From Nitrospira sp. (GTDB taxonomy: Bacteria > Nitrospirota > Nitrospiria > Nitrospirales > Nitrospiraceae): DNA of 64,000 nucleotides. A model generated the notes under the pieces. The model saw nothing but the letters and a program-made list of their open reading frames with translations, made no database searches and was not told where the DNA came from. Numbering within the stretch: the first letter of the stretch is position 1; each line of letters starts with the position of its first letter. The stretch is taken from assembly GCA_030653545.1 (NCBI GenBank), contig JAURZE010000014.1:1-64000 (forward strand). Direction: 5' to 3'. The translations under genes and the position numbers were made by a program. Of the stretch, positions 1,516 to 19,919 are shown one piece after another.

Positions 1516-3447
1516 ATGAAGATCACGCTTAAAGGCGGGAATAGCCAGGTCCTTGAAACCGGACAGACCGTGGGAGCGGCCTTGAAGGCCTGCGGCCTGT
1601 CGATCGGATCCGATGTCCTCGCCGCCAAAGTCAACGGAGTCGTGGTCGATCTGTCACGGCAGCTGACTGAAGACGCTGTCGTGGAACCCATCCGGTTCGA
1701 TACGACAGAAGGGCGAGAAGTTTATCGCCACAGCAGCACCCACATCATGGCGCAGGCGGTAAAAGAAGTATTTCCAACCGCACAGGTCACCATCGGTCCG
1801 GCGCTTGAAGATAGCTTCTTTTACGACTTCGCCTTCGAGCGGCCTTTCACGCCGGAGGATCTCGAGAAAATCGAAGCTCGCGTCCGCGAGATTATCAAGC
1901 GGAACCTGCCGGTCACGCGGAAGGAGCTGTCGAAGCAAGAAGCTATTCAGCTTTTCCAATCTCGCGGTGAAGCCTATAAGGTCGAATTGATCCAAGGATT
2001 CCCTGAGCATGAGCCGATCTCTGCCTATAGCCAGGGCGAGTTTATCGATCTCTGTCGTGGGCCCCATCTCCCCGCCACCGGCCACGTCGGCGCATTTAAG
2101 CTCCTGACCACCGCCGGCGCCTACTGGCGCGGAGATGAGCGTAATCCGATGTTGCAACGGATCTACGGAACATCCTTCCCAACCCAGGCTGAACTCGACG
2201 CCTATCTGACGCGCCTTGAAGAGATTAAGCGGCGGGATCATCGTAAGGTAGGGAAAGAACTTGATCTCTTTACGATACAGGATGAAACCGGTCCTGGATT
2301 GGTCCTCTGGCATCCCAAAGGAGCACTGGTTCGGCTCTTGATCGAGAACTTCTGGCGCGAACAGCACATTAAGGATGGATACGATCTGGTGTATTCGCCC
2401 CATGTAGCCAGGCTCGACCTTTGGAAAACGAGCGGGCACGTTGACTATTATCGGGAGAATATGTTCGCACCGATGAAGCTGGAAGGCAGCGAATACCAGC
2501 TCAAGCCGATGAACTGCCCCTACCACATCATGATTTACAAATCGCACTTGCGGAGTTATCGGGATCTCCCCATCCGCTACGGCGAGCTCGGGACAGTGTA
2601 TCGGTATGAACGCACGGGCGTCCTGCATGGCCTCTTGCGCGTGCGCGGATTCACGCAAGACGATGCGCACCTCTTTTGCCGACCCGATCAGATTCAGGAT
2701 GAGGTCAGCCGGGTATTGGACTTCACCTTCTTTATTTTGAAATCGTTCGGCTTTGTCGACTTTGAGATCTTTCTGTCGACCAGACCGGAAAAGTCGGTCG
2801 GCTCTGATGATAAGTGGGTCCTCGCGACAGATTCGCTGGAGGGAGCGCTCAAGAGCCGTGGGATCGCCTTTCATTTGGACGAAGGGGGCGGGGCCTTCTA
2901 CGGACCGAAAATCGATATTAAAATCAAGGACGCGCTTGGCCGATCCTGGCAATGCTCCACCATTCAGGTGGACTTCAACAATCCGGAACGGTTTGAGCTC
3001 GGTTATATCGGGGAAGATGGAAAATCTCACGAGCCGATCATGATTCATCGGGCCTTGATGGGGTCCATTGAGCGATTCTTCGGGATTCTCATCGAACATT
3101 ATGGCGGCGCATTCCCAACCTGGCTGGCGCCGGTCCAAGTCGTGGTCATGGCGATCACCGACAATCAGCGGGAGTATGTGAATACCGTCGTCGCGCAGTT
3201 GAAAGCCGCAGGGTTTCGGGCTGATGCCGACCTGCGCAACGAAAAAATCGGCTTTAAAATTCGCGAGGCGGAAAAAGCCAAAATCCCCTACATGCTCGTG
3301 GCGGGGGATCGGGAAGTCCAGAGCGGCACGCTCTCCGTCAGAGGACGGAGCGGGGCAAATCTTGGCAGTATGACAGGGGCTGCAGTGATCGATCTTCTCA
3401 GGAACGACGTCACGCGCGCGCAGCCGGAGCTACAACCAACACACTAA
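1516..3447 (+). CDS. thrS: Threonine--tRNA ligase
   Basis: A class II aminoacyl-tRNA synthetase that charges tRNA-Thr in the cytoplasm. The 643-aa length is normal for the bacterial enzyme. In order: TGS domain (about 1-62), editing domain with HSSTH at 72-76 and a CRGPH motif near residue 180, catalytic core with MNCPYH (zinc ligand Cys334), the motif 2 region RYERTG, and a C-terminal anticodon-binding domain. The ATG at 1516 has only a weak ribosome binding site. It leads the cluster thrS-infC-rpmI-rplT, a conserved bacterial order. No T-box or long leader was recognised between tRNA-Val and thrS. Confidence 0.97.
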   Translation: MKITLKGGNSQVLETGQTVGAALKACGLSIGSDVLAAKVNGVVVDLSRQLTEDAVVEPIRFDTTEGREVYRHSSTHIMAQAVKEVFPTAQVTIGPALEDSFFYDFAFERPFTPEDLEKIEARVREIIKRNLPVTRKELSKQEAIQLFQSRGEAYKVELIQGFPEHEPISAYSQGEFIDLCRGPHLPATGHVGAFKLLTTAGAYWRGDERNPMLQRIYGTSFPTQAELDAYLTRLEEIKRRDHRKVGKELDLFTIQDETGPGLVLWHPKGALVRLLIENFWREQHIKDGYDLVYSPHVARLDLWKTSGHVDYYRENMFAPMKLEGSEYQLKPMNCPYHIMIYKSHLRSYRDLPIRYGELGTVYRYERTGVLHGLLRVRGFTQDDAHLFCRPDQIQDEVSRVLDFTFFILKSFGFVDFEIFLSTRPEKSVGSDDKWVLATDSLEGALKSRGIAFHLDEGGGAFYGPKIDIKIKDALGRSWQCSTIQVDFNNPERFELGYIGEDGKSHEPIMIHRALMGSIERFFGILIEHYGGAFPTWLAPVQVVVMAITDNQREYVNTVVAQLKAAGFRADADLRNEKIGFKIREAEKAKIPYMLVAGDREVQSGTLSVRGRSGANLGSMTGAAVIDLLRNDVTRAQPELQPTH

Positions 3448-3457: not shown

Positions 3458-3967
3458 ATCGTCCCCAAACTGCGCGTGAACCGCGAAATTCGAGTGCGAG
3501 AGGTTCGAGTCATCGGTCCGGAAGGAGAGCAACTGGGGATCCTCCCCACGCCAGACGCGTTGCGCCAGGCTCAGGAGGGCGGCTACGACCTCGTGGAGGT
3601 CGCTCCCACTGCAGCGCCGCCGGTTTGCCGAATCATGGATTACGGCAAATACAAATTCGAGCTCAGCAAGAAGGACCATCAGAATCGACGTCACCAAAAG
3701 TCGACCCAGGTCAAGGAAATCAAGCTTCGGCCACGCACCGATAAGCACGACCTAGGCATCAAGATCCGTCAGATCAAGGAATTTTTGGCTGACGGGAACA
3801 AGACCAAGGTCACGTTGACGTTTCGTGGCCGGGAAATGGCCAATCAAGAGATGGGTCGATCACTCATGAGCTCAGTGATCGCCGAAATGACCGAGATTGG
3901 AACGATAGAGTATGCCCCGCGCATGGAAGGCCGCAGCCTGATCATGATCGTGGCACCCAAGAATTAG
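3458..3967 (+). CDS. infC: Translation initiation factor IF-3 (apparent ATC start codon)
   Basis: IF-3 binds the 30S subunit, prevents premature 50S joining and checks the start codon and initiator tRNA. N- and C-terminal domains are both present: VGPEGEQLG-type start, PPVCRIMDYGK, KEIKLRP, FRGREMAN and a final IMIVAPKN. The conserved N-terminus PKLRVNREIRV lies upstream of the first standard codon (GTG at 3476). An in-frame ATC at 3458 is preceded by AGAGGTGGG. IF-3 genes classically use a rare start codon (ATT/ATC/ATA) for autoregulation, so ATC 3458 is the preferred start, giving 169 aa. It follows thrS by 10 bp. Confidence 0.93.
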   Translation: MVPKLRVNREIRVREVRVIGPEGEQLGILPTPDALRQAQEGGYDLVEVAPTAAPPVCRIMDYGKYKFELSKKDHQNRRHQKSTQVKEIKLRPRTDKHDLGIKIRQIKEFLADGNKTKVTLTFRGREMANQEMGRSLMSSVIAEMTEIGTIEYAPRMEGRSLIMIVAPKN

Positions 3968-4006
3968 GGATACATTTGCAGCCTACAAACGGAGAGGATG
4001 GATTCG

Positions 4007-4207
4007 ATGAAAACGAAAGCCAAGACACACAAAGGGGCTAAAAAGCGGTTTTCCCGCACCGGAAGCGGCAAGCTTGTCCGACGGAAAGCCGGGAAGCGCC
4101 ACTTGTTAAGCCATAAGAAAAGCGATCAAAAGCGCCGGTTAAGCGGAACGGCCGTGGTGGATGCGACTTCCACCTTGTCTTTGAACCGCCTCTTGCCGTA
4201 TAACTAA
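4007..4207 (+). CDS. rpmI: 50S ribosomal protein L35
   Basis: A very basic 66-aa ribosomal protein with the L35 pattern KTKAKTHKGAKKRFSRTGSGK near the N-terminus and HLLSHKKSDQKRRL in the middle. An ATG at 3998 would add three residues, but GGAGAGG ends immediately before it. The ATG at 4007 has the same site at a proper distance and matches the family N-terminus (MKTK). It is third in the cluster, between infC and rplT. Confidence 0.95.
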   Translation: MKTKAKTHKGAKKRFSRTGSGKLVRRKAGKRHLLSHKKSDQKRRLSGTAVVDATSTLSLNRLLPYN

Positions 4208-4250: not shown

Positions 4251-4619
4251 ATGCCCCGCGCAAAAGGTGGACCGAAAACAAGAGCGAGACGGAAAAAGCG
4301 GCTGAAGCTAGCAAAGGGACAGTACGGCGCGAAGAGCCGGTTGTTCCGCTCAGCCACGGAATCAGTTGATAAGGGACAGCAGTACGCCTATGACGGACGA
4401 AAGAACCGGAAGCGGGATTTTCGCCGGTTGTGGATTGCGCGCATCAGTGCCGCCGTCCGGGCACAAGGACTGACCTACGGTCGGTTCATCAACGCCCTCA
4501 AGAAAGCGGAAATCCTACTGGATCGAAAAGTTCTCTCAGACATGGCGATCAAGGATGCCGCGGGCTTTGAAAAGTTGGTCGGCTTGGCCAAGCAACACTT
4601 GACTCCTGTCGCTGCATAA
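4251..4619 (+). CDS. rplT: 50S ribosomal protein L20
   Basis: A 122-aa basic protein with a standard L20 sequence ([50 protein letters not shown]). L20 is an early 50S assembly protein binding 23S rRNA, and in other bacteria it represses translation of its own operon. An AAAGGAG site precedes the ATG. It is the last gene of the plus-strand cluster and is followed by a hairpin at 4665-4689. Confidence 0.97.
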
Positions 4620-4664
4620 CGACACCGCCTCTGAACCACGGTTTCAAGTAGCTTCTCTGATCTT

Positions 4665-4689
4665 GGAGGGCGACAAGCTGTCGCCCTCC
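4665..4689 (+). terminator. Hairpin terminator after rplT
   Basis: A perfect 11-bp stem GGAGGGCGACA / TGTCGCCCTCC with a 3-nt loop. The following T tract is weak (ATCAATTT). It lies in the gap between the plus-strand rplT cluster and the convergent pheT, so it may act from both sides. Confidence 0.6.
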
Positions 4690-4995
4690 ATCAATTTACC
4701 AGTCTCAGCACCCCTTCCCCCAACGCATCTCAGACCGGATACTTGTCGGCTCCGGTATTTTGAATTCGCCCGTTCGTCTGCATTCACGTCTCTGCAATAA
4801 GAAAATATCGTCGGGTCCTCACCGTGACCTCAAATCACGGGCAACCGCAAGACCAATAGTCGGATGGGGATAATATAGCGCTAGCTAACGCAGCTCATCG
4901 CTCACGCCAACTCCGCGCCATGAGGGGGCAAAAATGTGATGACCGCCGCGAGAAATTCCAGGGACGCAAGATGAGATGGCAAGGCGAAAAAACAA
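4690..4995. other. Intergenic gap between convergent rplT and pheT
   Basis: About 300 bp without a supported gene. Short open frames cross it but have no ribosome binding sites. No repeat or tRNA was seen. This is the junction where the conserved thrS-rplT cluster meets the archaeal-type pheST genes. Confidence 0.5.
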
Positions 4996-6714
4996 CTAGC
5001 TCAGATCGAGCAGTTGAGAGAGGTTCACGTCGAACGAAACGACCGGCACGGTGATCTGCCAGCGCTCGAGGACTTCGGGATGGACTTCGCCGATGACGCC
5101 GATGGGTTTTCCTGCGACAACGATGCGCCCTGCGCGGCCTTCCAGGAAGGACGGATGCTGGACCGGCTCCAGACTGTAGTCTTTTCCCAAATGATAAAAG
5201 AGGATATCGAGGCACGAGTGGATTTCCGAGAAGTGCGCGGTCGCATGGGCAATGACGGCGCCCAACACCGTCTCCGTGCGTGAGCCTAGCTCATGCGTGG
5301 GATCGGGGATCGCCACATCGCCGGCCTCGAACAAACGGTGCGGATAGAACGCCCGGCTCGACGCTGTTTCGACACGCAGCAACGAAGGAAGCAGCCACTG
5401 TCGCAGGCAGGAGAAGGTCAGCGTCATGGCATTCTCCACTTCGACCATCCTCCCCCACTCTGTATCAGCCAGACGCATCGTATCGCGATAGCTCTCCGGC
5501 GATCCCATAATGTTGGAGATGATTTCCTGGAATCCCAGCCCGACCATGAGCTCACGCGCTCGATCCGACGTCTGCTCAATCCGCGAGAGCCCTCCTACAG
5601 TAAATTGCGCCGGCATGACCGGAGCGAACTCTCCGTAGCCACGGCTGATCGCGACATCTTCAACCACGTCCATCGCATGCATCAGATCCTGCCGATAAGG
5701 CGGCAACGTTGCCTTCACCGTCCCCTTCCCAGCTGAGACCTCGTACCCGTACACTTCGAGCGCCTGCTTCACAACCTTCACACCGAGTTCTTGACCTAGT
5801 GCTTGTTCAATGGTCTTGAGTTGAATTGTCTTGGAATTCCCAAGATCCTGCGGCGTGACCACCCGTTTACCCAAAGGGGTGCTCTTGGGGTAGTGCACTT
5901 CAACCGGTTCGATCACGGCGCCGCGATCGGCAAGGTTGGCAGCAAAGATATTCAGCGTAAGGACAACCATCAACTGATCGGTCCCGGTCACTTCGACAAA
6001 CAGTTCGTCGTCCCCGACGCGCACTTCCCCCACTTCTCGACTGTTGATGATCGGCGGGAACGACAAGGGTTGATTCTTTGCATCACGGAGAATCGGGAGA
6101 CGACTCTGCCCGGCCAGGATATGCCCATGCTCCAGCCCTTTCGGATGGACCATGAGAATTTCCGCCAGCGTCATCACCGTCTCCATACCCAGCGGGGTAA
6201 ACTTCGCCTGATCCGGCTTGACCAACTCATAGGTGACCGGGAACGCAATCTTCGCCAGCTGGTAGACCCCGATTGAGACGGTCTTTCGCTTATGCCCGAA
6301 GATATCCGCCAGCTTCTCCTGCGTCTGAATGAGCTGGGCTAAGCCTTCCTCGGTAACCCGATACCCCCTGGCTGTGCAAGCAGCGACATAGGGACGCACC
6401 TGTTCGAGCCCCGGTGCGACAATGAGCACGTGTCCCTTCTTCGCCTTCTTGGCGAAGAAGGGATACGGCTTGAGCTTCCCCTGTTGCTTGATACGAATTT
6501 GCCGCGCAATGCCTTCGCAACACCAGAGGTCGGGCCGATTGCTGTCTTGCAATTCGATGCGCAACTCTCCGGTTTCAATATTATGCCCCTTGAGCTCACC
6601 CTTCACGAGCATGAGCCAGTCTTCCAACTGCTCGATCGAGACCGGGCGCTTGGCGCGACCGCCGAGAGCCAGCAGCGATTCGAAGTCGTCTTTGAAAATA
6701 GAAATCGTGGGCAT
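4996..6714 (-). CDS. pheT: Phenylalanine--tRNA ligase beta subunit, archaeal/eukaryotic type
   Basis: The beta subunit of heterotetrameric PheRS, which charges tRNA-Phe with PheS. Typical bacterial PheT is about 800 aa, with an N-terminal EMAP-like tRNA-binding domain and a C-terminal FDX-ACB domain. This protein is 572 aa and lacks both, as in archaea and eukaryotes. It starts MPTISIFKDDFESLLA, has an ELRIELQDSNRPDLW motif, the B3/B4 region in the middle, B5-like segments (VVEDVAISRGYGEF), and a C-terminal class II-like fold with RLFEAGDVAI. It follows pheS by 8 bp in the same operon. A bacterial-type pheT is not in the window. Confidence 0.92.
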   Translation of the reverse strand: MPTISIFKDDFESLLALGGRAKRPVSIEQLEDWLMLVKGELKGHNIETGELRIELQDSNRPDLWCCEGIARQIRIKQQGKLKPYPFFAKKAKKGHVLIVAPGLEQVRPYVAACTARGYRVTEEGLAQLIQTQEKLADIFGHKRKTVSIGVYQLAKIAFPVTYELVKPDQAKFTPLGMETVMTLAEILMVHPKGLEHGHILAGQSRLPILRDAKNQPLSFPPIINSREVGEVRVGDDELFVEVTGTDQLMVVLTLNIFAANLADRGAVIEPVEVHYPKSTPLGKRVVTPQDLGNSKTIQLKTIEQALGQELGVKVVKQALEVYGYEVSAGKGTVKATLPPYRQDLMHAMDVVEDVAISRGYGEFAPVMPAQFTVGGLSRIEQTSDRARELMVGLGFQEIISNIMGSPESYRDTMRLADTEWGRMVEVENAMTLTFSCLRQWLLPSLLRVETASSRAFYPHRLFEAGDVAIPDPTHELGSRTETVLGAVIAHATAHFSEIHSCLDILFYHLGKDYSLEPVQHPSFLEGRAGRIVVAGKPIGVIGEVHPEVLERWQITVPVVSFDVNLSQLLDLS

Positions 6715-6722
6715 GGCGTGCG

Positions 6723-8288
6723 CTAGAAGATCCCTCTGGTAGTCCGGATCAAGTCCAGATTGTCGGTGAACAATTCGCGAATGTCGTGAATGCCGAGCGC
6801 CACCATCGCCATGCGATCCAGGCCCAGTCCCCAGGCGATGACGGGCACGGTGACACCCAATGGCAAGGTGACTTCAGCGCGAAATAGCCCCGCTCCGCCC
6901 AGCTCCATCCACCCCAGGCGCGGATGCCGCACATGCATTTCGACCGACGGTTCGGTAAAGGGGAAATAGGCCGGCAGGAATTTCACTTCCTTCGCCTGAG
7001 CCACTTCACGCGCAAAAAGATTCAGGAGGCCGAGCAGCGTACGGAAGTTAATATCCTTACCCAGCACAATGCCTTCGACCTGGAAAAAGTCGGTGGCATG
7101 CGTGGCGTCGACCTGGTCATAGCGGAAACAGCGAGCGATCGAGAAATACTTTCCCGGCACGGCCGGCGCGGACGCTAACGTCCTTGCGGAAACGGCGGTC
7201 CCCTGACTCCGCAATACCAGCCGCTTGGCTCGTTCGGCATTGAAAGCGTACTTCCACCCTGTGGAACCGGTCTTGCCGCCATCCTGATGTGCCTTCGTCA
7301 CCCGTGACAGGAACGGCTCGACGATCTTCGCGGCATGCGTGGGGTGCTTCACGAAGTAGACGTCGTGAATATCGCGGGCCGGATGGAACTGCGGCATGAA
7401 GAGCGCGTCCATGTTCCAGAATTCGGTTTCCACCAGCGAGCCGCGCATTTCCTGAAAACCCATACTCACGAGCTTTGTCTTCACGGTATCGAGAAACTCG
7501 CGATAGGGATGCTTCTTTCCCGTTCCGATGCGGGGCGCACGCAGACTGATGGTGTATTTGCGGAATCGCTTATTCCGCCAACTGCCGTCCTTCAATAGGT
7601 CGGGAGTGAGTTGAGAAACTTCCTCCGCCACTCCTTCCTTGGCGAGGTGCTCTGCCGCCTCGACTCCGGACGGAGAGAGCGTAAAGGATCGCGTGACCCG
7701 ATCATCCACCCGGAATGGCTCTTTGGCGTTCCCGCGCTTGACAGCGTAATCCTCGATCACTTGGCGATGGGCTTCAGGAAAGCTCTGTAGTTCTCGAGCC
7801 GCCTCGCTGACCTGTTGGAGCAAGACCCTCATGGCCTCGACGGTCGGACTGGGACGGCCAGTGGATTCGATACAGCCGCCCTGGACGATCAGCAACACTC
7901 CTTCTTTTTTCAAACGTCCGACCGCTTTGCTGACATCGGATGGATCCAATCCATCCTGCGCCTGCAGATCGGGAATGGTCAGCCGCTTCCCCGTGCTGGC
8001 CACTTCTCGCGCGGCTGAGAAGACCCGTTCGATCGGTGACGCGCCACTGACATACTGTTCGCCCACCTTCGTCAGGGAGACCATCGGCGTCACCGTCTCG
8101 GCATGCACCACCAGCAGAGACTTTGCGAGTAACCACTCGATCGCCATGCTGAGCTGGGACGGCTCCAATTCAGCCGCAGCGGCCAATGGCTCGGTCTCGA
8201 GCACGGTGCCTGCAGGACGTGACCCGAGGGCCATGAGGACCTTGATTTCGAGGGGATGCAGACTGTCGATGAGTGCGGAAGTATCCAC
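6723..8288 (-). CDS. pheS: Phenylalanine--tRNA ligase alpha subunit, archaeal/eukaryotic type
   Basis: The catalytic class II subunit of PheRS. The N-terminal ~200 residues hold winged-helix segments (LHPLEIKVLMALG, LTIPDLQAQDGLDPSDV) characteristic of the archaeal/eukaryotic enzyme, instead of the short coiled coil of bacterial PheS. The catalytic core has HPARDIHDVYF, YFSIARCFRYDQVDATH, FFQVEG, FTEPSVEM and the final GLGLDRMAM motif 3. The GTG at 8288 gives 521 aa, close to family size, and lies 10 bp after the rpe stop. Longer in-frame starts would overlap rpe. No strong ribosome binding site precedes the GTG, so the start is moderately certain. Confidence 0.92.
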   Translation of the reverse strand: MDTSALIDSLHPLEIKVLMALGSRPAGTVLETEPLAAAAELEPSQLSMAIEWLLAKSLLVVHAETVTPMVSLTKVGEQYVSGASPIERVFSAAREVASTGKRLTIPDLQAQDGLDPSDVSKAVGRLKKEGVLLIVQGGCIESTGRPSPTVEAMRVLLQQVSEAARELQSFPEAHRQVIEDYAVKRGNAKEPFRVDDRVTRSFTLSPSGVEAAEHLAKEGVAEEVSQLTPDLLKDGSWRNKRFRKYTISLRAPRIGTGKKHPYREFLDTVKTKLVSMGFQEMRGSLVETEFWNMDALFMPQFHPARDIHDVYFVKHPTHAAKIVEPFLSRVTKAHQDGGKTGSTGWKYAFNAERAKRLVLRSQGTAVSARTLASAPAVPGKYFSIARCFRYDQVDATHATDFFQVEGIVLGKDINFRTLLGLLNLFAREVAQAKEVKFLPAYFPFTEPSVEMHVRHPRLGWMELGGAGLFRAEVTLPLGVTVPVIAWGLGLDRMAMVALGIHDIRELFTDNLDLIRTTRGIF

Positions 8289-8298: not shown

Positions 8299-9000
8299 CT
8301 ATCGATGGGAAGCGGCGTGAGAGGTGATTGTGGCGGCCGGCTGCCCCGCGGTCCGCAGCGCTGCAATGGTGCCGGCATAGTCTCGGCTCGCAAAAATCGC
8401 CGAGCCGGCGACCAGGACGTCGGCTCCCGCCGCGATGATCTGCGCGGCATTGTCCGGTTTCACTCCGCCGTCGACTTCGAGCAACGCCCGGCTTTGGAGA
8501 CGATCCAACATCTCCCGAATTGAGGCAATCTTCTTCAATACGGACGGAATGAACTTCTGCCCGCCGAATCCTGGATTGACCGACATGACGAGCACCAGAT
8601 CGACGTCGGCTAAAATCTCCTGCAGGACACTGACCGGCGTCGCAGGATTGAGCGTCACGCCAGCCTTGACCCCACGCTCCTTGATCGATTGAATTGTCCG
8701 ATGGAGATGAGGGCAGGCTTCGACGTGCACCGTGATGTAATCGGCTCCGGCCGTCACAAACTCCGGAATGAACGCATCGGCATTGGTAATCATCAGATGC
8801 ACATCGAGCGGCACTTTAGCGACCTTCTTGATCGACTCGACGACCGGAGGACCGATCGTGAGGTTCGGCACAAAGTGTCCGTCCATCACATCGATATGAA
8901 GGAGATCCGCGCCGGCTCGTTCCACAGCCGCAATCTCATCAGCCAGACGCACGAAATCAGCTGCGAGAATCGAGGGGGCAATCAATACCGGACTACTCAT
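8299..9000 (-). CDS. rpe: Ribulose-phosphate 3-epimerase
   Basis: Interconverts ribulose-5-phosphate and xylulose-5-phosphate in the pentose phosphate or Calvin cycle. The 233-aa TIM barrel begins SSPVLIAPSILAADF and has HIDVMDGHFVPN, DVHLMI, VNPGFGGQKF and LEVDGGV, covering the metal-binding His/Asp residues and the phosphate site. The ATG at 9000 overlaps the rsmB stop in an ATGA, which suggests translational coupling and decides the start over a longer upstream frame. Operon order is fmt-rsmB-rpe-pheS-pheT. Confidence 0.96.
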   Translation of the reverse strand: MSSPVLIAPSILAADFVRLADEIAAVERAGADLLHIDVMDGHFVPNLTIGPPVVESIKKVAKVPLDVHLMITNADAFIPEFVTAGADYITVHVEACPHLHRTIQSIKERGVKAGVTLNPATPVSVLQEILADVDLVLVMSVNPGFGGQKFIPSVLKKIASIREMLDRLQSRALLEVDGGVKPDNAAQIIAAGADVLVAGSAIFASRDYAGTIAALRTAGQPAATITSHAASHR

Positions 9001-10424
9001 AACGACCCTTGCGTCTTTCTCAACCGGACGGCATAGAACCCGTCCATCCCGAGGGTATTTCCCATCGTGGACAACGCGCCCTGTGCCGTCACAAACGGAC
9101 GGGCAGGAGCGGGAATCCACGGCAGAATGGACTCGCGAGCACAATCGGCGTGGTCCTGGCAAAACCGGATAATGACGGCTTCAGTCTCTTCCGGTTCTGT
9201 CGAGCAGGTACTATAGACCAGCACCCCGCCAGGCCGCAAGACAGTGAACGCCCGTTCGAGAATCTCTCCCTGTAAAACTTGATGGCGGGCGAACATCCCG
9301 ACATCTTTTTTCCCCTTCGCATCAGGGTGTCGACGCAGTACACCAATGCCACTGCAAGGAGCATCGACCAAGATGCGATCGAAGACACCGAGCGGTGGGA
9401 GCTGTGTCTCTATCTTCTGGCAAGGGGCAATCATGCCAAGCTCTCTCGCATCTCCCACAACCGGAGAAATGATCGCCACACCAAGCCGCTGGCAGTTCTC
9501 TTTCAATACCTGTAGTCGCACGGCGTGACGGTCCATTGCTACGATCTGACCACGATTCGACATCAGCTCGGCGAGATGCGTCGCCTTTCCTCCAGGGGCC
9601 GCACAAACATCGAGAAGACGCTCGTCCGGATGTGGATCCAATAGAGGTGGAACGAGTTGCGCGGCTTCGTCTTCGACATAGAACACTCCGTCTTGAAACC
9701 CCGGGATCGTAGTGACGGCCCGTCCCTCTTCGAGCATCACCCCGACGGGGCTGACAGTTGTCGGACGGGCGGCAATCCCCGCGCCGACGAGCTGCGCAAG
9801 AAACGCGTCACGGGTCACTCGCTGACGATTCACCCGCAGCGTCAGAACTGGAACGGCACTCACGCTCTGACAGGCAGCTTCCGCCCTTTCAATCCCCATG
9901 TGTTCGACCCATCGAGTACAGAGCCACTGGGGTACCGCGTAGCGGATCGAGAGTGCCAAAGCCGGCTCTGGGTGGAGCCCGGGGAACGGCCGTTCCGGCA
10001 AACGGATCACGGTTCGTAGCACGGCATTCACGAGGCCGCTCCAATCCCTCCCAAGCTGGGCCTTGTTGGCCTTGGCCAGATTCACGGATTCATTCACGGC
10101 TGCAGAGGCCGGCACACGATCCATGTAAGCCAACTGATACATCCCCATGCGCAGAAGCATCTGCACCATCAGCGGGAGTCGCGGCAAGGGTTTCTTCAGT
10201 GCGGGCTCCAAACGCCAATCAAGCGTCTCCTGGCGGCGCAACACTCCATAGACTAATTCCATGGCGAAGGCGCGATCACGCCCATCCATCGCTTGTCGAT
10301 CCCACAAGCGATTGCAGACCTCATCGAGTGGGTCGCCTGATTTGGACTGGGTCAACAAGGCCACCAGCGCGCGGGCCCTGGCGGAAGGAGAGGCGGACTG
10401 CATTGAGACAGGAGGAGAAGACAT
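8997..10424 (-). CDS. rsmB: 16S rRNA (cytosine-967-C5)-methyltransferase (RsmB/Sun family)
   Basis: Methylates C5 of a cytosine in 16S rRNA using S-adenosylmethionine. The N-terminal NusB-like domain covers about residues 1-150 (ELVYGVLRRQETLDW, NAVLRT). The C-terminal Rossmann fold has LLDVCAAPGGKATHLAEL, LVDAPCSGIGVLRRHPD and VYSTCSTEPEE, holding the two Cys residues typical of RNA m5C methyltransferases. The ATG at 10424 gives 475 aa. A longer frame starts at 10478 inside fmt. Even this start overlaps nothing important: fmt ends at 10436. It sits between fmt and rpe, a common bacterial arrangement. Confidence 0.93.
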   Translation of the reverse strand: MSSPPVSMQSASPSARARALVALLTQSKSGDPLDEVCNRLWDRQAMDGRDRAFAMELVYGVLRRQETLDWRLEPALKKPLPRLPLMVQMLLRMGMYQLAYMDRVPASAAVNESVNLAKANKAQLGRDWSGLVNAVLRTVIRLPERPFPGLHPEPALALSIRYAVPQWLCTRWVEHMGIERAEAACQSVSAVPVLTLRVNRQRVTRDAFLAQLVGAGIAARPTTVSPVGVMLEEGRAVTTIPGFQDGVFYVEDEAAQLVPPLLDPHPDERLLDVCAAPGGKATHLAELMSNRGQIVAMDRHAVRLQVLKENCQRLGVAIISPVVGDARELGMIAPCQKIETQLPPLGVFDRILVDAPCSGIGVLRRHPDAKGKKDVGMFARHQVLQGEILERAFTVLRPGGVLVYSTCSTEPEETEAVIIRFCQDHADCARESILPWIPAPARPFVTAQGALSTMGNTLGMDGFYAVRLRKTQGSL

Positions 10425-10435
10425 GGCGTGTCCGA

Positions 10436-11395
10436 TCACGCCGGTGGTTCTGACGGCGGCGGCTCTGCGTCGAAACATTGGCCTGCGCTCACGCGATGCC
10501 CCGCCAAATACTGCGCCACAGTGAGTCGTTTACTATTGGACGGTTGAATCTCTCTCAGGGCTACCACCCCGTCTCCCGTCGCGATTTGGATAGACTGCTT
10601 CGTCACCTCGATGATGGTGCCGGGGGCAACATCGGGCTTCCCCGGACTCTGATTTACGGCCCACACCATCCATCGTTCACCACCGATATGCGTATACGCA
10701 CCGGGCCAGGGAGAAAGACCGCGGACACGATTGGCAATGTTGCTCGCACTCGTTGCCCAGTCAATCACCCCGTCTTTTTTCTTCAAGGGCGGGGCCAAGG
10801 TGGCCAAAGCATGATTCTGCGGCTGCGGCGTAATGGTTCCCGCCTTGAGCCTCGCAATTGTCTTCACCAGCAAACTTCCTCCGAGTACGGCGAGGCGCGG
10901 CGCCAGCGTTCCCGATGTGTCTTCAGGGAAAATCGGCAGTGACTCCTGCAAGAGCATGGCGCCTGTATCCATCCCCTCATCCATCAGCATGGTAGTGATG
11001 CCGGTCTCGGTCTCACCGTTGATCACCGCCCATTGCACTGGCGCCGCTCCGCGATATTTCGGCAGTAGCGAGCCATGTACATTCACGCAACCCACCGGCG
11101 GCAAGGTAAGGATCGGGCTATGGAGAATTCGTCCATAGGCCGTGACAGCGATCAGATCGGGCTTCCAGGCTGCGAGGGCCGTGAGAAACTCAGGCACTCT
11201 GATTTTCACAGGCTGGAGAAAAGGTATGCCTTCTCGTTGCGCAAGGAGCTTGATCGGAGGCGGAGTCAAGACTTGGCCGCGCCCTTTAGGACGATCAGGT
11301 TGCGTGACAATGCCTACGACCTGGTCATCAGACTTCAGCAGCGCCTCAAGTGAAGGGATGGCAAATTCTGGCGTGCCCATAAAGACAATACGCAT
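10436..11395 (-). CDS. fmt: Methionyl-tRNA formyltransferase
   Basis: Formylates Met-tRNA-fMet using 10-formyl-tetrahydrofolate before translation initiation. The 319-aa length is normal. The protein starts MRIVFMGTPEFA and has the formyltransferase signature NVHGSLLPKYRGAAP with catalytic Asn and His, then MDEGMDTG with the catalytic Asp, and a C-terminal OB-like domain. The usual neighbour def (peptide deformylase) is absent. Its substrate tRNA gene begins 86 bp away on the opposite strand, so the two are divergent. Confidence 0.97.
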   Translation of the reverse strand: MRIVFMGTPEFAIPSLEALLKSDDQVVGIVTQPDRPKGRGQVLTPPPIKLLAQREGIPFLQPVKIRVPEFLTALAAWKPDLIAVTAYGRILHSPILTLPPVGCVNVHGSLLPKYRGAAPVQWAVINGETETGITTMLMDEGMDTGAMLLQESLPIFPEDTSGTLAPRLAVLGGSLLVKTIARLKAGTITPQPQNHALATLAPPLKKKDGVIDWATSASNIANRVRGLSPWPGAYTHIGGERWMVWAVNQSPGKPDVAPGTIIEVTKQSIQIATGDGVVALREIQPSNSKRLTVAQYLAGHRVSAGQCFDAEPPPSEPPA

Positions 11396-11480: not shown

Positions 11481-11558
<78 letters not shown>

Positions 11559-11574
11559 ACAAACCTCTTCCAAT

Positions 11575-12675
11575 TCAACAGCTTACCAGAGATTCTCTCC
11601 CTGCTTCCGACACAGTGAAATTAGCCGATTGTGCTAAAACTGTGCTAACTCCGTCCGGAACCCGATCAAGAATCTCGATGCCAGCGCGTAAACTCTCCGG
11701 ATGGTGATGCGCATATCGCATGACCATCGAAATTGTTTTCCACCGCCCAAGCTTTTGCACGGTGTAGATGTCGCACCCGGCTTGCACGAGTCGAGTGGCA
11801 AAGGTATGGCGCAGATCATGAAACCGGAATCGTTTCACCTCTGCCTTTCTCATGGCCGGATAAAAGACACGCAGGAGATCCCGTGCGTCCATTCGGTTCC
11901 CGGCCCCGTTGAAGAAGACATAATCCGTCTTGAGCGATCGGACTTTCACCCTGGCTTTGAGTACCTCCAGCGTCTTTGCATTCACTGGAAGCGTATCTCT
12001 GCCTCCGTTCTTTTGTTCCAGCAGAGTAATGGTTCTCCTGAACAGATCCACGTTGCACCATTGAAGGTTCAGAATTTCACTCTGCCGAAATCCCGTGTTG
12101 ACCGCGAAGAGAATGATCTCTTGTAGCCACACAGGAGAGGCCGCTAAGAGACGCTGTTCTTCTTCTGCGGACAGCCATCGCTCAATCAGATTCCGCACTT
12201 TCTCCTTCGAGACCCGCTGCACCGGATTGTCCGCCACCCATTCCCATTCCTTTACCGCGAGCTGAAAGGCATGGCCTAAGAGCGTCAGTTCATTGTTGAT
12301 CGTCTTAGCCGCGGCACCGTCAGCCCGTCGCTTCGCCTTGTGCGCTGCTAAAAGAGAAGGTCGCACTTCCTTCAACGTCAAATCCCCGAAGACCCGGATC
12401 AGTGACTGAACGCGAGACTTGTCACATCTGTGTGTCGTGGGGGCTCTATTGCAAGCCGAGTGATCTCTCAGATATCGCTCCAAGAGTTCTTTCACGGTCT
12501 TGTCAGCCCCGGCTTCAGGCGGATACCACTTGCCCTCAGCGATCTGGACCATCACCTTGTGATAAATCTTCTCCGCCAGCTTCTTATCCGTGACTTCCGT
12601 GGATCTCCTGATTTGCTTCCCTTGATAGGGAAAACCCATCCACCAGACGCGGCCTCGCCGAAACAGAGCCATCAT
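11575..12675 (-). CDS. Tyrosine-type site-specific integrase of the island
   Basis: Catalyses integration and excision at the tRNA-fMet att site (inferred from position). The 366-aa protein has an N-terminal arm-binding-like domain (VWWMGFPYQGKQIRRST), a SAM-like core-binding domain in the middle, and a catalytic domain. The latter has Arg in NTGFRQSEILNLQW, Lys in EQKNGGRDTLPV, HDLRHTFATRL, LGRWKT (Trp in place of the second His, as in many phage integrases) and the nucleophile Tyr in MRYAHH. AAGGAGG precedes the ATG. Start and upstream stop overlap as TAATG, so it is coupled to the AlpA-like gene. One copy of the 19-bp bipartite motif lies inside its 3' end. Confidence 0.95.
   Translation of the reverse strand: MMALFRRGRVWWMGFPYQGKQIRRSTEVTDKKLAEKIYHKVMVQIAEGKWYPPEAGADKTVKELLERYLRDHSACNRAPTTHRCDKSRVQSLIRVFGDLTLKEVRPSLLAAHKAKRRADGAAAKTINNELTLLGHAFQLAVKEWEWVADNPVQRVSKEKVRNLIERWLSAEEEQRLLAASPVWLQEIILFAVNTGFRQSEILNLQWCNVDLFRRTITLLEQKNGGRDTLPVNAKTLEVLKARVKVRSLKTDYVFFNGAGNRMDARDLLRVFYPAMRKAEVKRFRFHDLRHTFATRLVQAGCDIYTVQKLGRWKTISMVMRYAHHHPESLRAGIEILDRVPDGVSTVLAQSANFTVSEAGRESLVSC
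11630..11648 (+). repeat. Bipartite motif copy 1 (putative integrase arm site)
   Basis: TGTGCTAAAACTGTGCTAA contains two TGTGCTAA units 11 bp apart, about one helical turn. It lies 72 bp inside attL, within the 3' end of the integrase gene. Near-identical copies are at 14938-14956 (reverse) and 19901-19919. The function as integrase arm site is inferred. Confidence 0.6.
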
Positions 12676-13022
12676 TAACCTCCTTGCTTGGCCCTGATTT
12701 CGTCTGGTTTCTCGCAGGCGGGAGTATAGACCTGGCGTTTTGCGGCTTCAATCAGTTGATCCAGATCGCGGGTCGGTTGGCAGGGGAATGGTGGGACCGC
12801 TGGGATCTTGCTGGGCTCAAATGAATGCAGCCAGGCAGTGATGGCGTCCGGGTCAAACCGGATCAATCCATGAATCTTCCGACAAGGAATCTTGCCCTGC
12901 GCCGCCCAGAGGTACAGCGTAGACGGCTTGATATTGAGCCAGGTTGAGAGATCTTTAATTGTGAGTAGCATCTTGAGCCCTTCGTCGGGGGAGTCTTCCG
13001 ACACCCCCGCACCCCCTGTCAC
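12675..13022 (-). CDS. AlpA-like MerR-fold DNA-binding protein (putative excisionase)
   Basis: A small protein with a winged-helix/MerR-type domain: LLTIKDLSTWLNIKPSTLYLW followed by GKIPCRKIHGLIRFDPDAITAWL. This is the typical pattern of excisionase/AlpA-family proteins, which control excision in integrated elements. GTG at 13022 overlaps the rep stop as GTGA and gives 115 aa. An ATG at 12971 gives 98 aa, starts right at the HTH, and could be the true start. It ends overlapping the integrase start. Role in excision is inferred from family and position. Confidence 0.8.
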   Translation of the reverse strand: MTGGAGVSEDSPDEGLKMLLTIKDLSTWLNIKPSTLYLWAAQGKIPCRKIHGLIRFDPDAITAWLHSFEPSKIPAVPPFPCQPTRDLDQLIEAAKRQVYTPACEKPDEIRAKQGG

Positions 13023-14026
13023 GGTGCGCCCGCGTCGCCGCCGGCGTCCTTTATGGAATTCGATGAGTTCTTGTTTTTCAGCAGCCCCCGATGCTTATCT
13101 TTCCATCGGCGCTTGCCCGCGAGAATTTGCCGCTCCAACCAGGCGTGTCCCTCGGGATCGGCCTCATAGATGACGGCTAACATAGGCGCGACAGACTGAC
13201 TCACCCAGCGCTTCACTTTGAGGAGGGTCTGCGCATCTTTCTCCACGACCAAGCGACCCTTCTTCAAGCCGTCGGTGAGCTGCACCCACCACTCCAGGAG
13301 CGGTGCCCGATATCGAGACTCATCCTCTTCCTCTCGGCTGGTGTCTCGGAAATCGACATAGCCCCGCAGGACTCCGACCATGAATTCCAACCAGTCCGCT
13401 TCTTCGAGATACGATAAGACCTGGCCGCAGACCTGCGCCCGCTCCTGTTTCAACTCCAATTCCCACCGGATGCCATACTCCTGCCAGTCCTCCCGTTGTT
13501 TGGCCTGACTCTCCAGACGTTTGTCATAGACCCGGAGCTTGGTTTGACTCTGCGGACTCCCGAAGTAGATGGTTTCCCCGCTTGCGGTGCCGGTATGGAT
13601 CAACGCTGAGGAGATCCGCTGGATCTGGCGAGCCCGCGTCACGCATTGCCCGGCCTCCACGGCGTGGCTGATGGTCGCGAGGGGGACCAGGCTCGCGCGA
13701 TCATCCAAGGCGCAATCGAGGCGTGTCAGATGGCCTTGTTGCGCTAAGATCCATTGGATGACTGTCCGGACCTTGCCAGCCTCCCAAGGGGCGACGATCC
13801 CGGCAGAGAGATCCACATGCACTTCGAGGGGATTCCGTGCCGCCCCGGTGCCCAGTTTGCCGATCCCTCGGTCTGATCCTGTCGTGATCCACGACACGGG
13901 ATAGCGCCGGAATCCGCTCTCGCTCTGAATCCAATCGCCTCCCAGCACCTGGAGAACGTCTTGGAGCGAACAGGAGGGCAGCGTAAAGGCAAGCCAATCG
14001 ATGGTGAGGGTGAAGGGGGGACTCAT
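13019..14026 (-). CDS. Rep_trans-type replication initiation factor
   Basis: A 335-aa protein resembling the replication initiation factor family (Rep_trans) of rolling-circle plasmids and integrative elements, which nick the double-strand origin. Supporting segments are LTIDWLAFTLP at the N-terminus, LTRLDCALDD, and GETIYFGSPQSQTKLRVYDKR, where the GS..S...RVYDK pattern is the family hallmark. AGGAGG precedes the ATG at a proper distance. The stop overlaps the next gene as GTGA. It suggests the island can replicate as a circle after excision. The catalytic Tyr was not assigned with certainty. Confidence 0.82.
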   Translation of the reverse strand: MSPPFTLTIDWLAFTLPSCSLQDVLQVLGGDWIQSESGFRRYPVSWITTGSDRGIGKLGTGAARNPLEVHVDLSAGIVAPWEAGKVRTVIQWILAQQGHLTRLDCALDDRASLVPLATISHAVEAGQCVTRARQIQRISSALIHTGTASGETIYFGSPQSQTKLRVYDKRLESQAKQREDWQEYGIRWELELKQERAQVCGQVLSYLEEADWLEFMVGVLRGYVDFRDTSREEEDESRYRAPLLEWWVQLTDGLKKGRLVVEKDAQTLLKVKRWVSQSVAPMLAVIYEADPEGHAWLERQILAGKRRWKDKHRGLLKNKNSSNSIKDAGGDAGAP

Positions 14027-14031
14027 CGACT

Positions 14032-14343
14032 CTATAGACCTCCTGGAATGATCGCTGTGGTTTGCGCCCCCGTGTTACCAGTCCGGGGGCTGGGAGTTCC
14101 TGCGCGCGGTCGGCAGGTGCCGTCCGCGGCGCAGGCTTTTGTGCCATAGCGGGCTTCGGCGTTGCGTTGCATATAGCGGAGCACTTCGTCGAGATCGAAC
14201 CGGAGCGCAGTCTTCACGCGAATGGCTGGGATCTCACCCTTCCGGAATGCCCGGCGAATCGTGTCGGTACTGACCCCGATCAGCTCGGCTAATTCTTTGA
14301 TAGAGACACGGTGGTCGGGCTTCTGCTCGTTTCTATCGTTCAT
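14032..14343 (-). CDS. Second AlpA-like helix-turn-helix protein
   Basis: A 103-aa protein with a MerR-type DNA-binding domain: VSIKELAELIGVSTDTIRRA then GEIPAIRVKTALRFDLDEVLRYM. The C-terminal ~35 residues are Pro/Thr/Gly-rich and look unstructured. AGGAGG abuts the ATG at 14349 but is well spaced for the ATG at 14343, which is preferred. It is the first gene of the leftward rep/int operon and lies next to the 10-bp repeats at 14405-14434. Autoregulation through these repeats is plausible but unproven. Confidence 0.78.
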   Translation of the reverse strand: MNDRNEQKPDHRVSIKELAELIGVSTDTIRRAFRKGEIPAIRVKTALRFDLDEVLRYMQRNAEARYGTKACAADGTCRPRAGTPSPRTGNTGAQTTAIIPGGL

Positions 14344-14404
14344 ACTCATCCTCCTGTGTAAACTTGAGTCAGGCTACCCGACTGCCACCCTTCTGGGAAT
14401 TAAG

Positions 14405-14434
14405 CAGATGTAGTCAGATGTATCCAGATGTGCG
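14405..14434. repeat. Three 10-bp direct repeats (iteron-like)
   Basis: CAGATGT units begin at 14405, 14415 and 14425, so the spacing is exactly one helical turn. They lie about 60 bp upstream of the first gene of the rep/int operon. Likely a binding site for one of the AlpA-like proteins or for Rep; which is unknown. Confidence 0.6.
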
Positions 14435-14678
14435 CTGCAGTGATCATTCTGTCGAACTTCCCCAGCAACGGCCCCCGCTCGGCACCCTCACGACGGTAGA
14501 GCAGCGGGCCACCAAAAGAAATTAGGCAGGAAGGGACTAGAGAGGTCAGGAGTGGTCAGAAACGTCTTGAAGTTCTATCTCTCACGAACAAGGGATTGTG
14601 CGGCTAAGCTCGATAAAGTGGCAACTGGCTTGGTCCTGATCGAATGATGCCGATCAAGAATTCGATTGGGAGGAGGAA

Positions 14679-14849
14679 ATGGTCACCGAACAGAAAATAT
14701 TTCTTCTCACGTGTTTCCTAACAGAGAGAAGCTGCCGACGAGATAGGAGCCAGGATGTTCACTCGCGAGAAATACAGGGTACCCGTGAGCCCGTAACTAT
14801 CTTTGCCGTACGTTTTGAGGGTGAGTTCATTTCCGAAAACGAGGGCTGA
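14679..14849 (+). CDS. Candidate small protein (56 aa), unknown
   Basis: An ATG at 14679 is preceded by GGGAGGAGGAA, one of the best ribosome binding sites in the island, and opens a frame of 56 codons ending TGA. The product has no recognised motif and no obvious membrane segment. It runs opposite to all other island genes. Support is only the binding site and open frame, so it may be chance. Confidence 0.3.
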   Translation: MVTEQKIFLLTCFLTERSCRRDRSQDVHSREIQGTREPVTIFAVRFEGEFISENEG

Positions 14850-14937
14850 GGCAGCTTGCTTGGCCGTCTACCCGTAGGCTTGGAGAGTTTCTATGCAGTC
14901 GATTGACTCTGCTCAGTTCGATGGTTTGTGATGCTTT

Positions 14938-14956
14938 TTAGCACAATTTTAGCACA
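14938..14956 (-). repeat. Bipartite motif copy 2 (inside island, reverse orientation)
   Basis: On the minus strand it reads TGTGCTAAAATTGTGCTAA, one mismatch from copy 1. It lies in the gene-poor control region, about 590 bp upstream of the leftward operon. It may be an operator, or mark an older right end of the element before the secretion cargo was gained. Confidence 0.55.
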
Positions 14957-15307
14957 GTGATTGCTTATAGAATTTCGTATAGCCATTCGTCTTCATTCAC
15001 GCTATCGACTAGGTCCGATTAAGGATTCCCTCTTTCGCCATTCCCGCGGTGGCACCGGCTGCGGATCGGCCCACAATTCTTTTCGCGCCTCCAGAGTGTC
15101 CTGCTCCTAGCCACTCCAATACTGTTCGCGATGCGAGTGCTTACGTTAGTCTTGTGTTTCGATAATACACACACTGGCGAATTTGTTTGATAGGTAGAGA
15201 GAAATCTCTGACACACCGTCTCCCACATCCTGTCCAAACACGCCCAGTCAGTGTGATCGGCCAATTCCGGGGGGCCTTCGGTGCTCAGGTCTTGTGTCAA
15301 GATGCTG

Positions 15308-17131
15308 TTAAAAGAGATTCATCACGACTCCCATGTGGACTCCATGATCCTGAAGCGTATTCCCGGCGCTCGGCACATGGTTCAGTTGCTGCCCCCAATA
15401 GACTTCAAAGAGGGCTTTGTCGTTGGGCAGGATATTCCAGCGGAGACCGGCCCCCGCGCTGGCAAGCGTGTTAGGGAAGCTGGTGAGGGGAGCTGTCACG
15501 GCCGGGCGGTTGTCGCCCAAGTTCCAGCCGTGTGCGACGTCCACAAAGAGTGCAACCTGGACCATCGGTTCGCCGTTCGCCCACCGTAGCACCGGAAAGC
15601 GTGGCTCCACCGAAGCAGTGATCGAATTGTCGCGTAGGATGGTCACTTCTCGGTAGCCGCGCACCGTGTACCGCCCGCCGAGCGCCACCTGCTCAAGCGA
15701 AAACAACGGCGAGTTGGTAAATTGCAGATCCAGGCGGCCGAGGAGCTGCATACCGAACCCCTCATCACCGAACTGTTTGATAGCCTGCGCCTGGCCCAGC
15801 CAGGAGAAGAATTGTCCGTCCGGCGTGTCAGGGTTTGCATGAATAGTCGCGCCGAGAACATTAAGGCCCACACTAAATCGAGAGCGGAGGGCCAGCACGG
15901 TATCGAGCGTGCGGTGGGTCCAGTCCTGCGCGAAGCGGAGGGCCGAGACGGTGGCTGCCCCATTTTGAAAACCAGGAGACGAATTGAACGTCATTTGATC
16001 GCTCGTGCCCGCGAACAGAAAGCTTTGGGTGAAGAGATGCTCCCCGATGATCGAAAATGCTACCTCGTCGGTCACGGTCTTATAAATCGGCTGACGCAGG
16101 CTCATGCCGATGATCTCTGAGTCCGCCTTGATGTTCAGCGGAGTGAAGGGCTGTTCGACTAGCTTGAAGCCATAGCGCCGGTAGTAGGGGGAAAAGGTTG
16201 TCCCGTATCGGTTGACGGGGAGAGAGTAGGAAGCGTCCACGATCGGAAAGGCGCCGCTCGATTGGCCGTAGCTGAGACTGAGCTGGTCTCCATGGCCGGT
16301 GAGGTTATCGTTGGACAGCGTGCCAATCCCTCGGATTTCCCCGACCAACGGTGTCTGATAGTTGTTGACCTCTAGCGTGGCGTGAAACGGGTTCTTGTCC
16401 ACCACGCGCACGTTCAGGACGCTGTCGCCCTGCTGGTCACCAGGTCGCAGTTCGGCGTTTACACGCTCAATCCGCCGGTCCTGCTGAAGGAGTTGCAGCT
16501 GCTCCTGCAAGGGGTCGAGCGACACCGGCGTGCGGATACCGAGTTCCAGGCGGTCGCGGAGGTAAGAGGAACGGAACCAGCGGTTTCCTTCTACGTCGAT
16601 CCGCGTCAGCGTTCCTTCGATGATCTGCATCGTGATGACGCCTGACGAGACGTCCTGGTCTGGGATGATCGCACCGGAGGTCAGGTAGCCCTTATTGACG
16701 TAGAGCAGGGTGAGGGCTAGCCGGAGCCGTTCGAGATCCTCGGTCAGCACTGTCCGGTTTGTAAATGGGGCGGTCACCTCGGCGATCTCCGTGTCCGAAA
16801 AGGCGGTGTGGCCGATCACGCGCACGTCACGAACGAACACCCGTATCGTGCCAGGCGGTGTCGGCACCTCGGTCTCCGGTGGGAGCGGAACGATGGGAAG
16901 CATGAGGTTCGGAGGTGGGATGGGCCGCTGAAATTCCTCCTTGAGGGGCCCGTGCGGTTCGCCGGACCGTCCTGTTGGATCGATCGCAATCTGGGCAAAG
17001 GCTGAAGGAGATGCCGACACCATGACCAGCACGAATCCGGTGCAGCAGCAAAGTGTTCCCAGGACCCAGGGTGAGCGAATAGGCCCTGGCTCCCCAACGC
17101 GATGGGTCATGACTGAGAGCTCGCCGACCAA
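15308..17131 (-). CDS. Two-partner secretion outer-membrane transporter (TpsB, FhaC/ShlB family)
   Basis: A 607-aa protein that should export the TpsA partner across the outer membrane. It has an N-terminal signal segment (VLGTLCCCTGFVLVMVSASPSAFA), a Pro-rich linker, two POTRA-like domains (about 95-250: VFVRDVRVIGHTAFSD, VITMQIIEGTLTRIDVEGN), then a 16-stranded-type barrel with the conserved VRGYRE loop motif and a C-terminal Phe. An ATG at 17110 is an alternative start. It lies downstream of tpsA on the same strand, with the decayed tpsA 3' region in between. The frame is intact, so the transporter may still function. Confidence 0.9.
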   Translation of the reverse strand: MVGELSVMTHRVGEPGPIRSPWVLGTLCCCTGFVLVMVSASPSAFAQIAIDPTGRSGEPHGPLKEEFQRPIPPPNLMLPIVPLPPETEVPTPPGTIRVFVRDVRVIGHTAFSDTEIAEVTAPFTNRTVLTEDLERLRLALTLLYVNKGYLTSGAIIPDQDVSSGVITMQIIEGTLTRIDVEGNRWFRSSYLRDRLELGIRTPVSLDPLQEQLQLLQQDRRIERVNAELRPGDQQGDSVLNVRVVDKNPFHATLEVNNYQTPLVGEIRGIGTLSNDNLTGHGDQLSLSYGQSSGAFPIVDASYSLPVNRYGTTFSPYYRRYGFKLVEQPFTPLNIKADSEIIGMSLRQPIYKTVTDEVAFSIIGEHLFTQSFLFAGTSDQMTFNSSPGFQNGAATVSALRFAQDWTHRTLDTVLALRSRFSVGLNVLGATIHANPDTPDGQFFSWLGQAQAIKQFGDEGFGMQLLGRLDLQFTNSPLFSLEQVALGGRYTVRGYREVTILRDNSITASVEPRFPVLRWANGEPMVQVALFVDVAHGWNLGDNRPAVTAPLTSFPNTLASAGAGLRWNILPNDKALFEVYWGQQLNHVPSAGNTLQDHGVHMGVVMNLF

Positions 17132-17518
17132 TCCGAGGCAGAAGCCTGGGTCAAGAACCCGGTCGGCGTGAGGACGACGTTGCTCCTCTGCGTCTGCGCC
17201 GCAGTCGTCCGTACAACGCTGGTATTGCTAACGGACGTAGAGCTGACGGTTATCTCAAAAGCTCCGCCAGCCCCCACTCCTATCGTCGATACGTCGATGA
17301 CGGCCCCCACTGTTTAATATGAGTTGGCCGGCATCGACAGTGATGATGCCTCCAGTTCCCACACCTGATGTGGCAGCAGAAAGAGTCCCGCCGTTCTTAC
17401 ACCCCTTACACCGTCAATGTTTGAGTCGAACCAGTCATAGGCCAGCCCGCATGGGTGCTAGCTTGAGTGATAACGATCTCATGCCGGGCCGTCGATTGGG
17501 TCCGACTCAGCCGCGCCA
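17132..17518 (-). pseudogene. Decayed 3' remnant of tpsA passenger
   Basis: Minus-strand translation shows passenger-like segments in different frames: EIVITQASTHAGWPMTG then a stop, GTLSAATSGVGTGGIITVDA in another frame, and AVIDVSTIGVGAGGAFEIT after a further shift. These Gly/Thr/Val-rich repeats are typical of beta-helical haemagglutinin passengers. The stops and frameshifts between them show that the 3' part of tpsA, or a second tpsA-like gene, has degraded. The last open stretch runs on to 17107 and overlaps the tpsB start region. Confidence 0.7.
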
Positions 17519-19570: not shown

Positions 19571-19607
19571 AGTGGATCTCCCCTCAATAATTAGGCCTCA
19601 GGGACCA

Positions 19608-19645
19608 ATAAAAAAGGTCGTTCGGGCGAAACTGCCTGAACGACC
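19608..19645 (-). terminator. Terminator upstream of tpsA (minus strand)
   Basis: A 13-bp stem, AGGTCGTTCAGGC paired with GCCCGAACGACCT on the minus strand with one G-T wobble and a 6-nt loop, is followed on that strand by TTTTTT. It would stop transcripts entering from attR, insulating tpsA from chromosomal reading. Confidence 0.75.
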
Positions 19646-19890: not shown

Positions 19891-19900
19891 CCAAATCGAC

Positions 19901-19919
19901 TGTGTTAAAACTGTGCTAA
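19901..19919 (+). repeat. Bipartite motif copy 3 (right end)
   Basis: TGTGTTAAAACTGTGCTAA differs from copy 1 at one base. It lies 131 bp inside attR in the same orientation as copy 1. In the excised circle the two would flank the att core at unequal distances, as integrase arm sites do. Confidence 0.6.

Follow-up and report, generated by a model that had tools for sequence, protein, structure and literature searches.

The pheST locus and its neighbors

The locus under study occupies positions 4996-8288 of the window, i.e. the whole stretch of 64,000 nucleotides of Nitrospira sp. DNA that was analyzed. It carries the genes for both subunits of a PheRS, pheS and pheT, next to the thrS-infC-rpmI-rplT cluster. 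The features of this region are the following:

1516..3447, plus strand: thrS (ORF and synteny)
3476..3967, plus strand: infC (ORF)
3998..4207, plus strand: rpmI
4251..4619, plus strand: rplT, its 3' end pointing toward that of pheT
4664..4690, no strand assigned: perfect hairpin around GGAGGGCGACAAGCTGTCGCCCTCC, between rplT and pheT, a candidate terminator that lacks a T-run
6714..4996, minus strand: pheT, archaeal/eukaryotic-type PheRS beta subunit, 572 aa, with B1, B3/4 editing, B5 and CLM domains and without EMAP (B2) and FDX-ACB (B8)
8288..6723, minus strand: pheS, archaeal/eukaryotic-type PheRS alpha subunit, 521 aa, GTG start, with an N-terminal winged-helix-like region (~1-215) and a class II catalytic core (~245-515)
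8299..9000, minus strand: rpe-like gene directly upstream of pheS, with a 10-nt gap (ORF and synteny)
8997..10478, minus strand: rsmB-like ORF (16S rRNA m5C methyltransferase), overlapping the rpe start (ORF and synteny)
10436..11395, minus strand: fmt (methionyl-tRNA formyltransferase), heading the same-strand run (ORF and synteny)

The pheS frame stays open as far as position 8450, and the GTG at 8288 was taken as its start because relatives of the same length begin at the equivalent position. Both pheS and pheT lie on the minus strand, are spaced by 8 nt and form the tail of the run rsmB-rpe-pheS-pheT, in which neighboring genes overlap or stand about 10 nt apart. The convergent position of pheST beside the ribosomal protein cluster, as well as the coordinates given for it in the original prediction, proved right: the plus-strand rplT stops at 4619, leaving a gap of 376 nt to the end of pheT. 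No significant match to remnants of a bacterial pheT was obtained when this gap was searched by tblastn. The hairpin at 4664-4690 (-30 kcal/mol, z -3.3), which is absent from the list of canonical terminators, is a candidate terminator for both convergent operons.

The locus encodes an archaeal/eukaryotic-type PheRS

By using profile searches, we found that PheS scored 562.8 bits against NF003210 (PRK04172), whose cut-off is 350, and that PheT scored 468.7 bits against the archaeal profile TIGR00471 (pheT_arch, cut-off 282.65), whereas it failed the bacterial profile TIGR00472 (pheT_bact) with 115.6 bits for a cut-off of 402.65 and with a match confined to the B5-CLM half. Pfam analysis of PheT returned B5 and CLM, plus a weak B1, and listed neither EMAP (tRNA_bind) nor FDX-ACB in 14 members, even at an E-value of 10. 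In the AlphaFold model of PheS, the N-terminal ~215 residues display a repeated HTH/winged-helix pattern with pLDDT values of about 80-92, and weak MarR/wHTH Pfam matches were observed in this region in up to 15 of 20 members. This extension, judged here as a whole, is well modeled, and the catalytic part of the same model is poor (pTM of 0.42). The best Foldseek match of PheS was full-length human cytosolic PheRS alpha.

Among solved structures, PheT is closest to the N-terminal fragment 2cxi from Pyrococcus horikoshii (38.7% identity over 346 residues), on which the AlphaFold model of PheT superposes with a TM of 0.95 and 1.6 Å. In the editing pocket, to which we assign Q126, E127, R137, L202, S211, D234 and T236 of P. 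horikoshii, 7 of 8 P. horikoshii residues are identical in the window PheT, and D234 is replaced by E, as in the human protein; the pocket residues are conserved throughout 27 Nitrospirota sequences. Previous work has described Asn217 (P. horikoshii numbering) as an editing-site residue, and both the winged-helix extension on alpha and the missing B8 as traits of archaeal/eukaryotic PheRS (PMC3275996). The window PheRS shares with the archaeal and eukaryotic cytosolic enzymes (P. horikoshii 2cxi and human 3l4g) the alpha extension, a beta subunit without B8, and the editing residues including Asn217.

Collectively, these results confirm that positions 4996-8288 encode an archaeal/eukaryotic-type PheRS. 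The architecture proposed in the original prediction, with a winged-helix N-terminus in PheS and a short PheT devoid of EMAP and FDX-ACB, was thus recovered by HMM scores, Pfam, the predicted fold and Foldseek, and the scores are unlike those of ordinary bacterial PheRS.

A single PheRS and a tRNA-Phe with bacterial features

The genome that contains the window (G000; 3.94 Mb, 39 contigs, 99.9% complete) was also searched for a bacterial-type pheST, as the original prediction had suggested. The only match to TIGR00468 was the pheS described here, and matches to TIGR00472 comprised this pheT, as a cross-match, and an EMAP-like stretch of 80 residues within a different ORF; hence profile searches found no second, bacterial-type pheS or pheT in this 99.9% complete genome. 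Likewise, archaeal-type and bacterial-type PheT never occurred together over their cut-offs in any of 296 Nitrospirota genomes. A rival reading, in which the archaeal-type pair is an additional PheRS with some other function and a bacterial-type enzyme encoded elsewhere charges the tRNA, is therefore highly improbable, and it is refuted for this assembly within its completeness. Among named relatives, PheT is 95% identical to that of Nitrospira sp. CG24D, and N. moscoviensis and N. defluvii were also matched.

One tRNA-Phe gene was present among the 45 tRNA genes read out from this genome. The Phe identity elements G34, A35, A36 and A73 are universal, G20 is characteristic of Aeropyrum pernix and yeast, and U20/U59 of Escherichia coli (PMC9976931). 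In 20 tRNA-Phe genes from Nitrospirota, position 20 was U in all of them and position 59 was U in 19. Moreover, the single tRNA-Phe of an archaeal-type genome from family f37 (G203) is identical at 76 of 76 positions to that of a bacterial-type genome from f23 (G032); compared with that of a bacterial-type genome from f40 (G297), a single position is different. Since identical tRNA-Phe species accompany different PheRS types and U20 was kept, the tRNA did not follow the enzyme. A drift of tRNA-Phe toward archaeal identity was rejected in the sampled genomes, all of which keep U20 and not G20. Judging from these gene sequences, Nitrospirota, with two PheRS types on one tRNA, look like a natural exception.

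Distribution and arrangement of archaeal-type pheST in Nitrospirota

Archaeal-type PheT exceeded its cut-off in 165 of the 296 Nitrospirota genomes and bacterial-type PheT in 119. Within the window's own class, every genome that passed any cut-off was of the archaeal type, which was also present in families f12, f13, f16, f19, f20 and f37. Because it is held by the whole class and by several further families, archaeal-type PheRS is an old trait of the class and of most of the phylum, and not a recent import. Family f20, which we presume to be Leptospirillum, includes a genome (G019, locus L080) with very divergent PheS and PheT, its PheT being 40% identical to that of the window and its end branch reaching 2.7-3.2. 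Our literature search, which did not extend to subscription papers, found no paper on the PheRS type of Nitrospira or Leptospirillum, although such a paper may exist.

In most lineages with the archaeal type, pheST adjoins rplT. The two genes rplT and pheT were convergent in 77 of the 80 loci that hold both rplT and an archaeal-type pheT, a set in which a few genomes are counted twice, and more than 1.5 kb of extra DNA lay between them in 14 of these 77 convergent loci. rpe and archaeal-type pheS share a strand in 80 of 96 loci. In one lake Nitrospira (L136), the block ihf-thrS-infC-rplT is inverted with respect to pheST, so that it trails pheT in the same direction.

Most of the bacterial-type families examined (f15, f18, f21, f22, f24, f25, f30-f36, f38-f40 and others) display a co-directional rplT-pheS-pheT order, which also occurs with bacterial-type genes in Sinorhizobium. 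Families f14 and f17 carry bacterial pheST without rplT within the stretch examined. In family f37, which includes the 'Thermodesulfovibrionia bacterium' Hainich-H32-bin005, archaeal-type pheS and pheT follow rplT co-directionally in two genera (L081 and L307), in the slot taken by bacterial-type genes in their relatives. Of the loci compared, only those of f37 clearly have archaeal pheST in exactly this slot. We think it unlikely that the f37 MAGs were mis-binned, given that archaeal pheST is contiguous with thrS-infC-rplT in both genera. The arrangement in the window lineage, with the pair convergent to rplT and inside the rsmB-rpe run, shows that pheST there was not a plain insertion at the old position.

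The original prediction had taken the locus as a replacement of native bacterial genes near or at their own site. This view stands insofar as the pair is archaeal-type, the sole PheRS, and located beside the slot in which sister lineages carry bacterial pheST, but it describes an old trait at the scale of the phylum rather than an event of this genome or genus.

History of the PheRS types

In an RpoB tree rooted with five outgroups, clade A (Nitrospiria, f12, f13, f19 and f20) was uniformly archaeal-type, with a support of 99/95, and in clade B families f16 and f37 were archaeal-type and the remainder bacterial-type. AU tests on RpoB rejected a single clade for archaeal-type genomes (p = 0.003) as well as for bacterial-type genomes (p = 0.001), which implies that the PheRS type changed at least twice. 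In a tree of PheS and PheT, for which Pyrococcus and human served as the comparison set outside Nitrospirota, all archaeal-type copies from Nitrospirota stood apart from those two (98/96), and the Nitrospirales copies mirrored the relations of genus, family and order. A search for further archaeal or spirochaete sequences returned only Nitrospirota from named genomes and nothing from viral contigs, and the PheRS genes on plasmid records were all bacterial-type. The pheST of the window lineage is inherited vertically, together with its neighborhood. The copies from f16 and f37 were sisters at 93/85 and split from clade A at 73/90, near the poorly resolved base of the Nitrospirota part of the tree. 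A tree of ThrS, IF3 and L20 placed f37 as sister to bacterial-type Thermodesulfovibrionia (98/98).

We consider it very probable that positions 4996-8288 encode the sole working PheRS of this bacterium, of archaeal type, and that the pair entered near the base of Nitrospirota, displaced the bacterial pair and has been transmitted vertically since then. Family membership, the sole copy, the distribution, the synteny and the tRNA sequences were observed directly; what we infer is that the enzyme is active, which way the transfer went and in what sequence the changes at the locus took place. The enzyme is predicted to be an alpha2beta2 tetramer in which alpha would provide the class II active site as well as winged-helix domains at its N-terminus, and in which the B3/4 domain of beta, a subunit without the bacterial anticodon-binding B8, would hydrolyze Tyr-tRNA(Phe). 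A linked archaeal-type pheS-pheT pair would have been acquired at the base of Nitrospirota or close to it, and transfer as a unit would be workable because the two subunit genes are linked. As the Phe identity elements are common to all domains, the incoming PheRS could presumably charge the resident tRNA-Phe, and today's enzyme would charge the host's bacterial tRNA-Phe (G34, A35, A36, A73, U20, U59) with no need for a change in the tRNA. The resident bacterial pheST may then have become redundant and been lost, the new pair settling beside rplT at the end of the rsmB-rpe run, with vertical inheritance afterwards in Nitrospiria and neighboring classes.

The PheRS tree allows either an archaeal-type ancestor with a return of the bacterial type, or a gain in clade A followed by transfers within the phylum. 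According to the former, archaeal-type PheRS was present in the last common ancestor of Nitrospirota, and the bacterial type of Thermodesulfovibrionia and of f14, f17, f18 and f24 is a newcomer that took over the rplT slot from the archaeal pair at least once. The split of f16 and f37, both of clade B, from all of clade A mirrors RpoB and is what this history would produce, as would the basal position of f37 relative to bacterial-type Thermodesulfovibrionia with archaeal pheST in the co-directional slot; the scattered archaeal type in f16 and f37 and the rejection of a single clade for either type fit it as well. The divergent bacterial PheT of genome G154, on a long branch, indicates in addition that later PheRS exchanges occur. 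However, the bacterial-type rplT-pheS-pheT order found outside the phylum in Sinorhizobium argues that this order is ancestral, and the supports of the decisive branches lie below the starred level; we regard an archaeal-type ancestor as rather unlikely.

An alternative that falls just short of an even chance is a single gain in the ancestor of clade A, with separate within-phylum transfers into f16 and f37, the latter landing exactly in the rplT slot through recombination between conserved flanks. The uniformity of clade A favors it, and so does the fact that f37 and f16 are sisters in PheRS despite not being sisters in RpoB; furthermore, the thrS-infC-rplT genes of f37 are of Thermodesulfovibrionia affinity, with archaeal pheST inserted co-directionally. 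Against it, the PheRS of f16 and f37 are not nested within the diversity of clade A in the best tree. Only tentatively, since it seems to us somewhat doubtful, do we propose that the PheRS types were exchanged repeatedly and in both directions, including at the same rplT-adjacent slot, while tRNA-Phe stayed unchanged to the last base.

The tree of bacterial PheT was weakly resolved and contained one separate lineage, that of G154 (contig C80, locus L094; family f27). This PheT contains EMAP, lies on a long branch, is unlike the PheT of f27 and is probably another PheRS replacement. The bacterial-type PheT proteins of Thermodesulfovibrionia, f18 and f40 (L087-L103 except L094, L304, L305 and L308-L311) have about 683-721 aa; where they were scanned, the TIGR00472 match begins at about residue 157, indicating that they lack EMAP/B2, which f14, f17 and f24 retain. 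B2 has also been reported to be missing in many PheT proteins of CPR bacteria (PMC5370408).

Precedents and implications

Archaeal-type PheRS has been reported in Spirochaeta, Borrelia and Treponema (Andam and Gogarten, 2011; PMC3191353). As in Nitrospirota, both spirochaete subunits are of archaeal type (alpha of 513-528 aa, beta of 514-573 aa) and the trait is lineage-wide. Nitrospirota differ in being another phylum, in having the pair beside thrS-infC-rpmI-rplT, and in the alternation of PheRS types between related families at one locus. Spirochaetes are thus the known precedent, and what is added here is the phylum-scale case of Nitrospirota and the apparent use of two PheRS types on one tRNA. 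The archaeal TyrRS and TrpRS of CPR bacteria (PMC5370408) are likewise interdomain replacements of an aaRS in bacteria; in that case tRNA identity became archaeal too, whereas Nitrospirota tRNA-Phe kept its bacterial features.

Accounts of the cross-domain replacement of an essential aaRS mostly treat it as an isolated oddity. Here, a phylum alternates between two PheRS types at a recognizable locus, no genome has both, and related families of different type share an identical tRNA-Phe. This offers a natural comparison for studying the limits to such replacements, and it is relevant to the orthogonality that genetic-code engineering takes for granted. Should the types indeed have been exchanged repeatedly, the PheRS-tRNA-Phe pairs of the archaeal and the bacterial type would lack orthogonality in nature, and PheRS swaps would be nearly free of tRNA co-evolution. 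pheS has served as a bacterial phylogenetic marker (e.g., PMC3636077), and caution is advisable because it could misplace or split Nitrospirota.

A neighboring element in the window

Beyond fmt, an initiator-like tRNA-Met (11481-11557) and a direct repeat of 47 nt matching its 3' half (20048-20094, 1 mismatch) bracket an element of about 8.5 kb, at 11481-20094 of the window, which resembles an element integrated in a tRNA gene. Its ORFs, all named by eye, are:

11575-12675, minus strand: tyrosine-recombinase-like ORF beside tRNA-Met
13019-14026, minus strand: replication-protein-like ORF
15308-17131, minus strand: outer-membrane POTRA/ShlB-like ORF
17519-19570, minus strand: haemagglutinin-repeat-like TpsA ORF

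The last two were read, also by eye, as a two-partner-secretion pair.
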